Origin: Caulobacteraceae bacterium
Lineage (GTDB): Bacteria > Pseudomonadota > Alphaproteobacteria > Caulobacterales > Caulobacteraceae
Length of the DNA stretch: 64,000 nucleotides
NCBI GenBank assembly: GCA_947441065.1
Contig: CANESI010000012.1
Location: forward strand, 1-64,000
Direction of reading: 5' to 3'
Shown here: piece by piece, positions 54,758 to 57,296 of the stretch
Layout: each line of letters starts with the position of its first letter
Numbering within the stretch: position 1 is the stretch's first letter
Translations under genes and position numbers: made by a program
Notes under the pieces: generated by a model
The model's input: the letters and a program-made list of their open reading frames with translations, nothing else
Databases searched by the model: none
What the model was told of the DNA's origin: nothing

Positions 54758-55411
54758 CTAATAATTTGTATAGGGATCGTTCGGGCCACCGATCCGTTCG
54801 AGCGTGACATGCAGGCCGCCTCGGTCCGGACGGGTCCAGACCATGTGCCCCTCGGCATCGAGCGCGCGGGTGACCTTCAGGCCCGGGATCGTAAAGGGCA
54901 CCTTGGGCCAGAGGACGGGGCGCAGGACAAAGACGCCCTTCTCATAGGTGACGATGACATGGATCGGCTTGGTATAGCCAAAGGCCGACACATCATGGAT
55001 GGCGTTCTTAAAGGTCCCATCGGCGCGGCCATCAGAGACCGTGCCGCCGCCCATATCGACAATGCGATTGCCGCACTGCTCGATCCGCTCGACATAGTTA
55101 TAGATCGGATCACCGGGCGGCGCCGTCTTGCCCCCGCGCTCCGCCTGCAAGACCTTCCAGATACCGCGCAGGTCCGGCGCGCCGGGGCTTAAGGGCTCAG
55201 TACAGGTCGCCAAGACCGGCGCCGGGAACGTCTTGCCATAGCCCCCCGGCGGCGTATGGGCCACCGCAATAGAACTGGCCATCACCACCCCGGGCAAGGC
55301 CGCCGCCTCCTGACCCTCTGGCGCCGGAAGACAGGCGGTTAGGGTTGCTGCGAGGGCTAGGGCGGCGAAGGGGCGGAGCCTCTGGCGGGATGTGCGGTCA
55401 AAGCGTTTCAT
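54758..55411 (-). CDS. Putative lipoprotein of unknown function
   Basis: 217-residue protein from ATG 55411 (GGGGAACAC just upstream). A lipoprotein signal ends in LTAC with C27 as lipidated residue. The mature part has PDLRGIWKVLQAER and CGNRIVDMGGGTVSDG, suggesting a lipocalin-like or DUF-type beta fold, but I cannot assign a family. Its start is 84 bases from the KAP NTPase stop on the same strand. Confidence 0.78.
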   Translation of the reverse strand: MKRFDRTSRQRLRPFAALALAATLTACLPAPEGQEAAALPGVVMASSIAVAHTPPGGYGKTFPAPVLATCTEPLSPGAPDLRGIWKVLQAERGGKTAPPGDPIYNYVERIEQCGNRIVDMGGGTVSDGRADGTFKNAIHDVSAFGYTKPIHVIVTYEKGVFVLRPVLWPKVPFTIPGLKVTRALDAEGHMVWTRPDRGGLHVTLERIGGPNDPYTNY

Positions 55412-55494
55412 GTGTTCCCCAACCCCAGCGCGACGCGGAGCAGATGGGGGGATTAGGCGCTTAGAGAGAGGTGGGGGCAAGAAGCAATGATAAT

Positions 55495-56946
55495 TCAATT
55501 TCGGAAACGACTTACCGACCTCAAAAGTTCATTATAGTTATGAATTTCCGCCAACTTTCTCTCAGGATTAAAAAGCTCAAACATAGTCGCGATGATATAT
55601 TGCTTATTACTATAATTAGTTTGCAATAAATGTCTATCAGAATTTGATTCGGCAATCTTTTTGAATTCACTAAACAATTCAGACAAAGAAATAGCGTCCT
55701 TTGGATTCATGTGAAGTAAAAATCTATAAATATTATTTGTAAAAACAGGAACAAGTTCTTTTTTGTGTCTTATAAAATTTATTAGCAATGGTAAAAAATA
55801 AGGAATAACGACTTTATACGGTCTTATTATGTTTATTGAAGTTGATAAATGATCAAATATCTCTGTCAATTCCCTTGGATTTATCGTAAATTCTTCAGCG
55901 TATAAATCTAAGATCATATTAAAATCTAATTTTTGTGATGAATAAGAATCTTCTGTATAATATTTTGGGAAGCTTACATCATTATCATTCAATTCATGAT
56001 GAAATATCAAACTTTTTATGAGATCAGCTCTATTAATATCTTTTAACGTGTACCTTCGATTGATGAATCGCCTAAGGTATGAGTTCCCATCGAACTCTGG
56101 GCCATAAGCTCCAGACACTGAATGACTTAGCTGGTCGCCGTGCATCCCTAAGATGAAAACGATTCCCGGAACATCGAATAGGTGTTTTATTTCCTCTAAT
56201 AATTTAATGGCATAGGTTGGTCTGCAACGGTCTAATTCGTCGATCACAATCACGATGGGAGCCATTTTAGAGCCTGATTTACCAAGGTTTTCAACCAAAG
56301 CCTTTAGGCTAGCCTTTACACCCTGCATCGCCTTTTTAGAGGATTCAAAGGCAGCGATTTGGTCATCCATCTCGCTACTCAATTCGAGCCGCTTTGTGGC
56401 TTCATCGGCCAATTCTTGACCCGCTAAACCGATCTGTTCTCTGACCTGATCTTTAGCTGCCTGATCAAGACCGCCTAAACCTGATACTAGGAAGTCCGCA
56501 GCTTGATGGGTAATCAGTGATCCCAAAGCCCTCTTTGCCAAACCAATCATGACCACCTTCGAAACGTGGCCCGTCGTCTCCAAGACCTTACCCCAATTGT
56601 CTTTAAGAGTCGGATTCTCGTCTATCGGGCCTAGGGCCTCTTTCAGTGTGGACAGAAGTGCGACAAGGGGTTCGTCCGCCAAGTCATCAGCCCAAGCGTC
56701 GATATAGGCGACAGGGTGATTGAACGACAAATGCTTCGCCAACCGCTTTAGAAAGAAGGTTTTCCCCTCTCCATAACCCGCATCAACCGCAATGGTATAT
56801 CCGTGATCTTTGAGGTTAGGGCCCGGTCGGTCATACAAACTTTCGATATAGCCAACCAGCAAGTCCGCCTCTTCACTGCGACCCAAAAGATCACTCTTCC
56901 AGACTTCGTTGGGTGTTTTGGCGTTTTGAATGTCATCCTCGGCCAT
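55495..56946 (-). CDS. KAP-family P-loop NTPase
   Basis: 483-residue NTPase of the KAP family (Kidins220/ARMS-PifA type; members include phage-exclusion proteins). ATG 56946 has AAGGGG 7 bases upstream; the longer frame to 57027 is less likely. Walker A GYGEGKT at 57-63; Walker B IVIVIDELDRCRP at 231-243; sensor-like FILGMHGDQLSHSVSGAYG near 268. A weakly hydrophobic stretch at about 129-160 is where KAP proteins often insert membrane helices. The C-terminal third is rich in Asn, Ile, Lys and Tyr. DNA is strikingly AT-rich, mainly 55495-56160, unlike all neighbours, so acquisition is likely. Biological role unknown. Confidence 0.88.
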   Translation of the reverse strand: MAEDDIQNAKTPNEVWKSDLLGRSEEADLLVGYIESLYDRPGPNLKDHGYTIAVDAGYGEGKTFFLKRLAKHLSFNHPVAYIDAWADDLADEPLVALLSTLKEALGPIDENPTLKDNWGKVLETTGHVSKVVMIGLAKRALGSLITHQAADFLVSGLGGLDQAAKDQVREQIGLAGQELADEATKRLELSSEMDDQIAAFESSKKAMQGVKASLKALVENLGKSGSKMAPIVIVIDELDRCRPTYAIKLLEEIKHLFDVPGIVFILGMHGDQLSHSVSGAYGPEFDGNSYLRRFINRRYTLKDINRADLIKSLIFHHELNDNDVSFPKYYTEDSYSSQKLDFNMILDLYAEEFTINPRELTEIFDHLSTSINIIRPYKVVIPYFLPLLINFIRHKKELVPVFTNNIYRFLLHMNPKDAISLSELFSEFKKIAESNSDRHLLQTNYSNKQYIIATMFELFNPERKLAEIHNYNELLRSVSRFRN

Positions 56947-57072
56947 AGCCATACCCCTTGTAATCACCGAATCTGGTCGAACTGAATCGACGATTCGATC
57001 TATTATTGCAGGTATTTTTAAAAACACATCTCAGATATGCTGGCTGTTTCTGGCAAAGAAGCGACCCAAACC

Positions 57073-57162
57073 ATGACCATCGGCCAAGACCTGATCCAAT
57101 CCCTCAATGAGGCGCTCGCCCATGCCAAGGGCGAGGGAACTGCGGTGGTGCATGAGCGTGCC
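57073..57162 (+). pseudogene. Truncated antitoxin-like (HigA/Xre type) N-terminal fragment
   Basis: The frame from ATG 57073 encodes TIGQDLIQSLNEALAHAKGE followed by GTAVVHERA. This matches the N-terminal segment of HTH-type antitoxin or regulator proteins, in which an HTH domain normally follows. Here the frame runs instead into the tRNA-Ala terminator and tRNA gene, so the HTH is missing. It is best read as a gene remnant at the junction between the KAP gene and tRNA-Ala. No toxin gene is nearby. Confidence 0.5.
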
Positions 57163-57187
57163 CAGCCTGCGACTAGCCCCCAAATGG

Positions 57188-57219
57188 AAAACCCCCCGCC
57201 GGGTTGCGGCGAGGGGTTT
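57188..57219 (-). terminator. Terminator of tRNA-Ala
   Basis: On the minus strand AAACCCCTCGCCG, a short loop and CGGCGGGGGGTTTT form a hairpin with a T run, directly after the tRNA 3' end. Confidence 0.85.
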
Positions 57220-57220
57220 A

Positions 57221-57296
57221 TGGTGGAGCTAAGCGGAGTCGAACCGCTGACCTCTTGAATGCCATTCAAGCGCTCTACCAGCTGAGCTATAGCCCC
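57221..57296 (-). tRNA. tRNA-Ala (anticodon GGC)
   Basis: 76-base cloverleaf on the minus strand. The acceptor GGGGCTA pairs with TAGCTCC, including the G3:U70 wobble that is the alanine identity element. Anticodon stem CTTGA/TCAAG with loop ATGGCAT (GGC), T loop GTTCGACTC, encoded CCA. Its 3' end points toward the KAP gene. Confidence 0.98.

Follow-up and report, generated by a model that had tools for sequence, protein, structure and literature searches.

KAP NTPases are tied to phage exclusion and typically, if not universally, have transmembrane segments inserted in the NTPase domain. One of them, Tmn, is a single gene. PDC-S20 in PADLOC-DB 2.0.0 is likewise a single-gene KAP NTPase; the label PDC-S presumably denotes a one-gene phage defence candidate. 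PifA of plasmid F excludes T7, and a passage of PMC8594841 recounts earlier work that suggested sensing of phage proteins and membrane depolarisation, adding that its range is very narrow and that it may have a different purpose. Tmn is described in a section of PMC11846954 as a KAP defence system with two transmembrane domains that blocks several phages by a mechanism as yet unexplored. QatA, the KAP protein of QatABCD, binds DNA and seems to form 7-8-mers, and its loss left defence against some phages (excerpts of PMC13279940). RdrA is the ATPase of RADAR and forms a heptameric ring. Its helical insert builds a crown on which RdrB docks (excerpt of PMC9994260).

We analysed a KAP gene next to tRNA-Ala(GGC) in a 64,000-nucleotide stretch of a Caulobacteraceae genome (hereafter, the window). 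Its product matches the PDC-S20 model over most of its length and did not differ from it in any feature measured, both being KAP NTPases of a single gene; the window gene is thus an added member of an already named candidate family. With PifA it has the KAP domain in common (51 bits over positions 37-329 of the PADLOC model), but that model has 720 positions and is not matched along its full length, the 483-aa window protein being without the rest. It belongs to the KAP family like Tmn, whereas the two transmembrane domains of Tmn have no counterpart by hydropathy. The KAP domain is also common to QatA (36 bits with PADLOC, 38.3 bits with NCBIfam), but the score lies below the NCBIfam equivalog cut-off of 600 bits and no qatBCD genes lie beside the window gene, which is flanked by the lipoprotein-like gene on one side and by an antitoxin remnant, tRNA-Ala and a TIGR02300 gene on the other. 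RdrA of RADAR is the best match to the predicted fold of the window protein, and in both a helical insert separates the Walker motifs, but the RdrA chains are ~300-350 residues longer, and there is no RdrB adenosine deaminase gene among the window neighbours. Literature searches found no phage assay of the window protein or of PDC-S20 and no paper naming PDC-S20.

An intact KAP NTPase gene beside tRNA-Ala

The features of the locus are as follows.

54758..55411, minus strand: lipoprotein-like gene, left neighbour, outside the KAP unit (94% identical protein in the congener G192)
55495..56946, minus strand: KAP-family P-loop NTPase of 483 aa, start ATG at 56946 (Pfam and PADLOC profiles)
55498..56045, minus strand: C-terminal part of the KAP protein, possible AAA+ lid helices followed by a fast-diverging segment (27% GC)
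56046..56946, minus strand: conserved N-terminal NTPase core, its Walker motifs separated by a variable helical insert (49% GC; alignments A1 and A2 and the structural model)
57073..57170, plus strand: remnant of a resident HigA-like HTH antitoxin gene, its HTH-coding part deleted (alignment with the intact G192 gene, L055:137-418)
57221-57296, minus strand: tRNA-Ala(GGC), landmark outside the KAP unit (Rfam tRNA)

The frame 57027..55495 on the minus strand has 510 open codons counted from GTG at 57027, and the start at ATG 56946 gives 483 residues. The protein scored 113.2 bits against Pfam KAP_NTPase (PF07693; cut-off 20) and 276.5 bits against PDC-S20 (residues 38-487 of the 510-aa frame, positions 11-402 of 464 in the model), and its Walker A (GYGEGKT from residue 57) and Walker B (DELDR at 236) motifs are both intact. 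In alignment A2, comprising the window protein and 16 relatives, G59, G61, K62, D236 and D239 are invariant and E237 is nearly so, and all 17 members match PDC-S20. The gene is present once in its own genome. These results agree with the sequence-only reading, which had described a KAP NTPase of 483 residues, its Walker A and B motifs intact, lying 3' of tRNA-Ala(GGC) in DNA richer in A+T than every neighbour.

Conservation along the protein is uneven. Among close relatives, identity is 59% in the core, 30% in residues 116-190 of the insert, 28% in residues 301-395 and 14% in residues 396-465, the fastest-diverging part, and rises to 38% in the last 18 residues, which end in a semi-conserved tail, Y-x-x-L-x-x-x-V-x-R. 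A simple hydropathy scan gave no transmembrane segment (highest 19-residue mean 1.36); the corresponding maximum is 1.25-1.64 across the 17 rows of A2 and exceeds 1.6 in 15 of 80 relatives from viral contigs. The only solved relative found by sequence was a Mediator subunit at E 0.026, a weak match taken as chance, and a promoter and terminator scan gave results at chance level.

The gene has 40.7% GC against 60.7% for the window. In a scan of 1452-base segments at 50-base steps, GC was lowest in those beginning at 55451 and 55501, against a minimum of 49.6% elsewhere. Within the gene, GC falls from 49% before residue ~293 to 28% beyond it. The AT-rich end of 183 codons would stay open in random sequence of the same make-up with a chance of ~7e-8, so the frame is real and the gene intact and kept. 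A C-terminal part of lower GC is common (72/80 viral genes, 15/17 A2 genes), though at third positions the drop is seen in only 50/80 and 14/17, so part of the drop reflects amino-acid make-up. Searches bearing on a domain swap from an AT-rich donor gave no such source: none of 15 pattern matches of the C-terminal part in viral contigs encodes a relative, and the AT-rich part had a single match in 385 class genomes, in its own genome.

The KAP gene stands in place of toxin-antitoxin genes

From left to right, the window holds tRNA-Leu(CAG) at 39.0 kb, a block reaching to 46.8 kb (presumably rnd-to-hpf and ptsN), a gene at 47.1-47.5 kb that we take to encode Hsp20, metabolic genes up to 54.7 kb, the lipoprotein-like gene, the KAP gene, the antitoxin remnant, tRNA-Ala(GGC), TIGR02300 and a gene assumed to be aroA. 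TIGR02300 is followed by tRNA-Ala in 20/20 family loci fetched, which were chosen among 279 genomes with TIGR02300, and the sequence beyond the tRNA differs between these loci, in several being the Hsp20 gene and the block seen in the window. Relative to family members in which Hsp20 adjoins tRNA-Ala, the window has ~8 kb of extra genes at 47.7-55.4 kb, presumably for a desaturase, an alcohol dehydrogenase, a P450, a thiolase-like protein, an MFS protein and the lipoprotein; from 49.1 kb on, as far as fetched, they are common to G192. A dispersed repeat family also runs through the window and G192, in pieces of 35 to ~250 bp that are 77-97% identical; the G192 stretch L055:5290-5870 matches the window at 7.1-7.5, 14.2-14.3, 28.4 and 32.8-33.1 kb, and further sites lie at 37.7-37.9, 39.2-39.3, 40.7-41.0 and 51.2-51.5 kb. 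In a Hyphomicrobiales locus (L060:5157-9914), a KAP relative lies ~3 kb from tRNA-Ala(GGC) and from aroA-like and TIGR02300-like genes. The window gene has this landmark too, but on the other side of aroA; the labels were assigned by eye and the coincidence may be chance.

Presence of the gene at this locus, with matching composition, in most relatives would have told against the sequence-only reading, but none of the six other genomes of the genus (63-97% complete) carries it. G192 has instead, after the lipoprotein-like gene, ParE/ParD-like genes and then an intact RelE-like/HTH pair next to the tRNA (ParE, RelE and HTH above their Pfam cut-offs, ParD below), and G193 has a RelB/YafQ pair past the tRNA followed by a pyridoxal-dependent decarboxylase gene, presumably lysA-like. 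The contigs of G191 and G195 stop within ~200 bases of the tRNA region.

The fragment between the KAP gene and the tRNA, recognised earlier as an antitoxin N-terminus, is 88% identical (57076-57157) to the start of the intact HTH gene of G192. It corresponds to that gene minus ~175 bp including the HTH part, and the match resumes behind the gap and continues up to the tRNA. From this comparison, the ancestor of the window lineage very likely had the HTH gene that is now a remnant, and the KAP gene occupies the position that the partners of this gene have in G192, in place of toxin-antitoxin genes. For 57000-57072, blastn matches to the RelE-like gene of G192 stop short of the stretch.

Two neighbours were considered as parts of the unit and rejected. 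The sequence-only reading had raised the idea of a lost partner for the NTPase; the antitoxin fragment does not fit that role, being on the plus strand, opposite the KAP gene, and derived by deletion from the HTH gene that G192 keeps whole in its RelE/HTH pair. Nor does the lipoprotein gene (54758-55411), suggested as a possible component, belong to it, since G192 has the lipoprotein without the KAP gene.

How the gene came to the site can be judged from the same comparison. The earlier proposal of a mobile or defence island survives in one half, a foreign and patchily distributed KAP NTPase that is probably a defence gene, and finds no support in the other, the integration of an island at the tRNA. 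Such an integration at the tRNA-Ala 3' end would agree with an AT-rich gene 3' of the tRNA and with site contents that vary in G192 and G193, but we regard it as very improbable. A second copy of the tRNA 3' end, which had been put forward as a check, is absent from the window (24 bases, ≤3 mismatches), as is any direct repeat with one copy on each side of the KAP gene; two of the short direct repeats detected have one copy inside it. All five matches to phage integrase (PF00589) in the genome are on contigs other than that of the window, and MobA/MobL was not found in the genome. A hairpin-like stretch, as judged by eye, lies directly 3' of the tRNA in the window, G192 and G195, with a similar one in G193, and the stretch unmatched in G192 is only ~1.66 kb long, with one intact gene inside. 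An assembly join of unrelated DNA in this draft genome is, if anything, more remote still: the contigs of G191, G192 and G195 do end at or near the site, but both flanks of the insert match G192 in order, and the remnant of the gene that G192 has at the site adjoins the insert. Arrival of the KAP gene by recombination in the flanks would be the simplest route.

Relatives in bacterial genomes and on viral contigs

Relatives with 31-43% identity over ≥380 residues were detected in six of the 389 other genomes of the family (E below 1e-50) and also elsewhere in Alphaproteobacteria, at seven loci, one of which is the same gene as L002. A class-level search at E 1e-40 gave seven genomes out of 385, the window's own among them. 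Bacteria with a relative include Sphingobium lactosutens DS20 and Novosphingobium guangzhouense. When 118 neighbour ORFs from 12 genome loci were clustered, no recurrent partner gene appeared; the sole sharing, between L074 and L078, is at the same polA site. In most of the loci the neighbours resemble ordinary genes, which we take to be mutL-like and phosphatase-like, clpB- and pnp-like, or purL-like, and in L061 a portal-like gene lies three ORFs from the KAP relative. In the window itself, the single-gene status follows the same pattern, with the lipoprotein-like gene, the antitoxin remnant and the tRNA as neighbours. In Sphingosinicella soli the relative (L065:4371-5947) is broken into two reading frames, through either decay or a sequencing error; the gene is therefore not always kept.

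Mobile element collections gave few matches among plasmids (72 of 72,556 records, one covering 80% of the query) and phage GenBank records (partial matches in 5 of 50,697, the best with 29% identity over 59% of the protein). Among viral contigs (IMG/VR, whose prophage calls can be wrong at their edges), 87 stretches encode relatives, of which 80 were kept. The PHROG family phrog_8614, without assigned function, matches at 175 bits. The next gene is convergent and from one cluster in 25 of the 80 loci, and the third gene is from it in one more (simple ORF picker); scanning of the L136 member gave a PHROG tail protein, presumably P2 gpD-like. Other recurrent neighbours are an endolysin-like gene and genes without assigned identity, in 4-6 loci each, and a 279-aa-type gene recurs adjoining the KAP gene in L159, L163, L164, L165 and L179. 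The KAP relative of L127, like that of the near-copy L128, is adjoined by portal and terminase genes (PHROG matches). A passage of PMC9122126 places the P2 defence hotspot between gpA and the portal gene gpQ; on the opposite side of the L127 relative, 5 kb of sequence showed no gpA, so its place is best described as portal-adjacent.

A tree built by a quick method, with many open forks, mixes chromosomal and viral rows. The smallest well-supported set that includes the window protein (SH-aLRT 97) holds 10 chromosomal rows, the window among them, and four viral ones.

Defence genes near relatives

Two relatives lie directly 3' of polA (L208 in genome G145 and L214 in G058); they are only 32% identical to each other and belong to separate regions of the tree (there labelled L003 and L007). 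The gene adjoining polA varies widely among 30 genomes of G145's genus (L208-L237, the best 30 of 95 genomes with a match), and some are ordinary host-like genes. Six of ten such cargo genes match PADLOC defence models, i.e., ThsA, type II methylase, Avs2, Argonaute-associated REase and, weakly, caspase and type I methylase, and four match none; the ten were picked by eye and scanned as 100-residue stretches. Three of the 30 loci (L210, L215, L235) contain a 162-251 bp copy of the polA 3' end, 88-94% identical, ~0.82-0.88 kb downstream of polA and behind the cargo gene, as if the cargo had brought a new gene end that displaced the old one.

Elsewhere, genes for a CBASS JAB protein, E1-E2, cyclase and 2TM effector lie beside the KAP relative in L063:9636-13718, and a CBASS cyclase and 2TM effector in L131. 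L075 has an AbiLi/AriA-like ATPase three genes from the relative, as well as a weak PDC-S09 match, and a neighbour in L074 matches PDC-M04A; the neighbour in L140, one of ten further neighbours scanned, matches no defence model. All these neighbours were chosen by eye while looking for defence genes, and no random-gene control stands behind the counts.

The predicted structure points to RdrA

The model of the monomer, built from 17 sequences, has a mean pLDDT of 77 and a pTM of 0.75, with pLDDT <50 at residues 136-161 and 167-189. The top 12 Foldseek rows are RdrA chains, as are VIA-align rows 1-7 (Z 17.8 to 14.7, rmsd 3.6-6.0), followed by an Orc2 protein at Z 13.9. The best RdrA row (Z 17.8, rmsd 3.6) covers 288 residues; identity in the fold match is 16%, over model residues 1-394. 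Many AAA+ proteins score well, so the fold match says RdrA-like AAA+ and no more. In a BFVD search the best match was a KAP protein of a giant virus, and the other named rows are mostly AAA ATPases.

The model places a variable helical insert between the Walker motifs, at residues ~112-224, which would correspond to the crown insert of RdrA. The C-terminal part modelled alone reached pLDDT 84.7; residues 301-483 had no PDB match at E 0.001, the best VIA row (Z 4.9) being too weak to assign a fold. Rows for Lon and ClpA (Z 2.5-4.1), covering the first ~95-125 residues of this part, would fit an AAA+ lid.

A candidate one-gene phage-exclusion factor

Given the PDC-S20 match, the patchy presence, the turnover of the site, the absence of a recurrent partner in the genome loci, the defence genes near relatives, the relatives on viral contigs, the RdrA fold match and the DNA binding and apparent 7-8-mers of QatA, another KAP protein, we read the gene as a horizontally acquired one-gene phage-exclusion factor of the candidate family PDC-S20, with a probability of about 0.6. 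The protein would be soluble and form an RdrA-like ATPase ring, using ATP to act either on the incoming phage or on some host process upset by it. The variable helical insert and the C-terminal part would probably bind nucleic acid or a phage protein and so sense the trigger, upon which infection would be blocked or aborted. Because no separate effector domain is recognisable, the likely effector would be the ring itself or a host protein recruited by it, and a direct membrane effect is less likely because there is no transmembrane segment. Any particular trigger or blocking step is far less probable than the general reading.

Several points weigh against this reading. The literature searches returned no phage assay of PDC-S20, the defence neighbours were picked by eye, with 4/10 polA cargo genes and 1/10 further neighbours matching no model, and the split relative L065 indicates that the gene is not always kept. 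Ring formation is predicted from a fold match that spans model residues 1-394 with 16% identity. Among better-described KAP proteins, PifA has a narrow range and maybe another purpose (passage of PMC8594841), and QatA loss did not abolish defence against some phages (excerpt of PMC13279940).

These doubts leave room for other functions. The KAP ring could be the sensor or motor of a two-part system, its effector located elsewhere or lost, by analogy with RdrA, which needs RdrB, and QatA, which is paired with QatBCD. The closest folds are indeed RdrA chains, on whose helical crown insert RdrB docks, a helical insert is present in the window model (at low confidence for residues 136-189) without a recognisable effector domain, and the 279-aa-type gene adjoins the KAP gene in five viral loci. 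We nevertheless consider a two-part system unlikely, as the 12 genome loci have no recurrent partner, the largest neighbour clusters in the 80 viral loci match phage tail genes, and the KAP gene is found in many unrelated places. The phrog_8614 score, the viral contigs and the mixed tree would suit a prophage gene, for superinfection exclusion or lysogen fitness, that was captured by the chromosome and has no present defence role. This reading appears quite improbable, since the frame has stayed intact through an AT-rich end that chance would soon close, and some chromosomal relatives lie among bacterial defence genes. We keep to a one-gene exclusion factor as the preferred reading.

For the family as a whole, a speculative and on present evidence doubtful proposal is that PDC-S20 comprises distinct soluble stand-alone ring NTPases that stop phages without a separate effector, in which the motor is conserved and an exchangeable C-terminal part sets the phage recognised, and which move as bare single genes, without an integrase, between prophages and fixed sites such as the polA and tRNA-Ala 3' flanks. 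The exchangeable part is suggested by the fall in identity from 59% in the core to 28% (301-395) and 14% (396-465) and by the abrupt GC drop that the window gene shows at the border.

The locus shows clearly how a defence-like gene can stand in for toxin-antitoxin genes at a fixed site, with no integrating element. The family offers soluble, apparently one-gene KAP cases that can be expressed and purified and whose predicted fold points to RdrA. The interest of the finding thus lies in a soluble single-gene class of KAP NTPases together with a documented toxin-antitoxin stand-in at the tRNA-Ala site.
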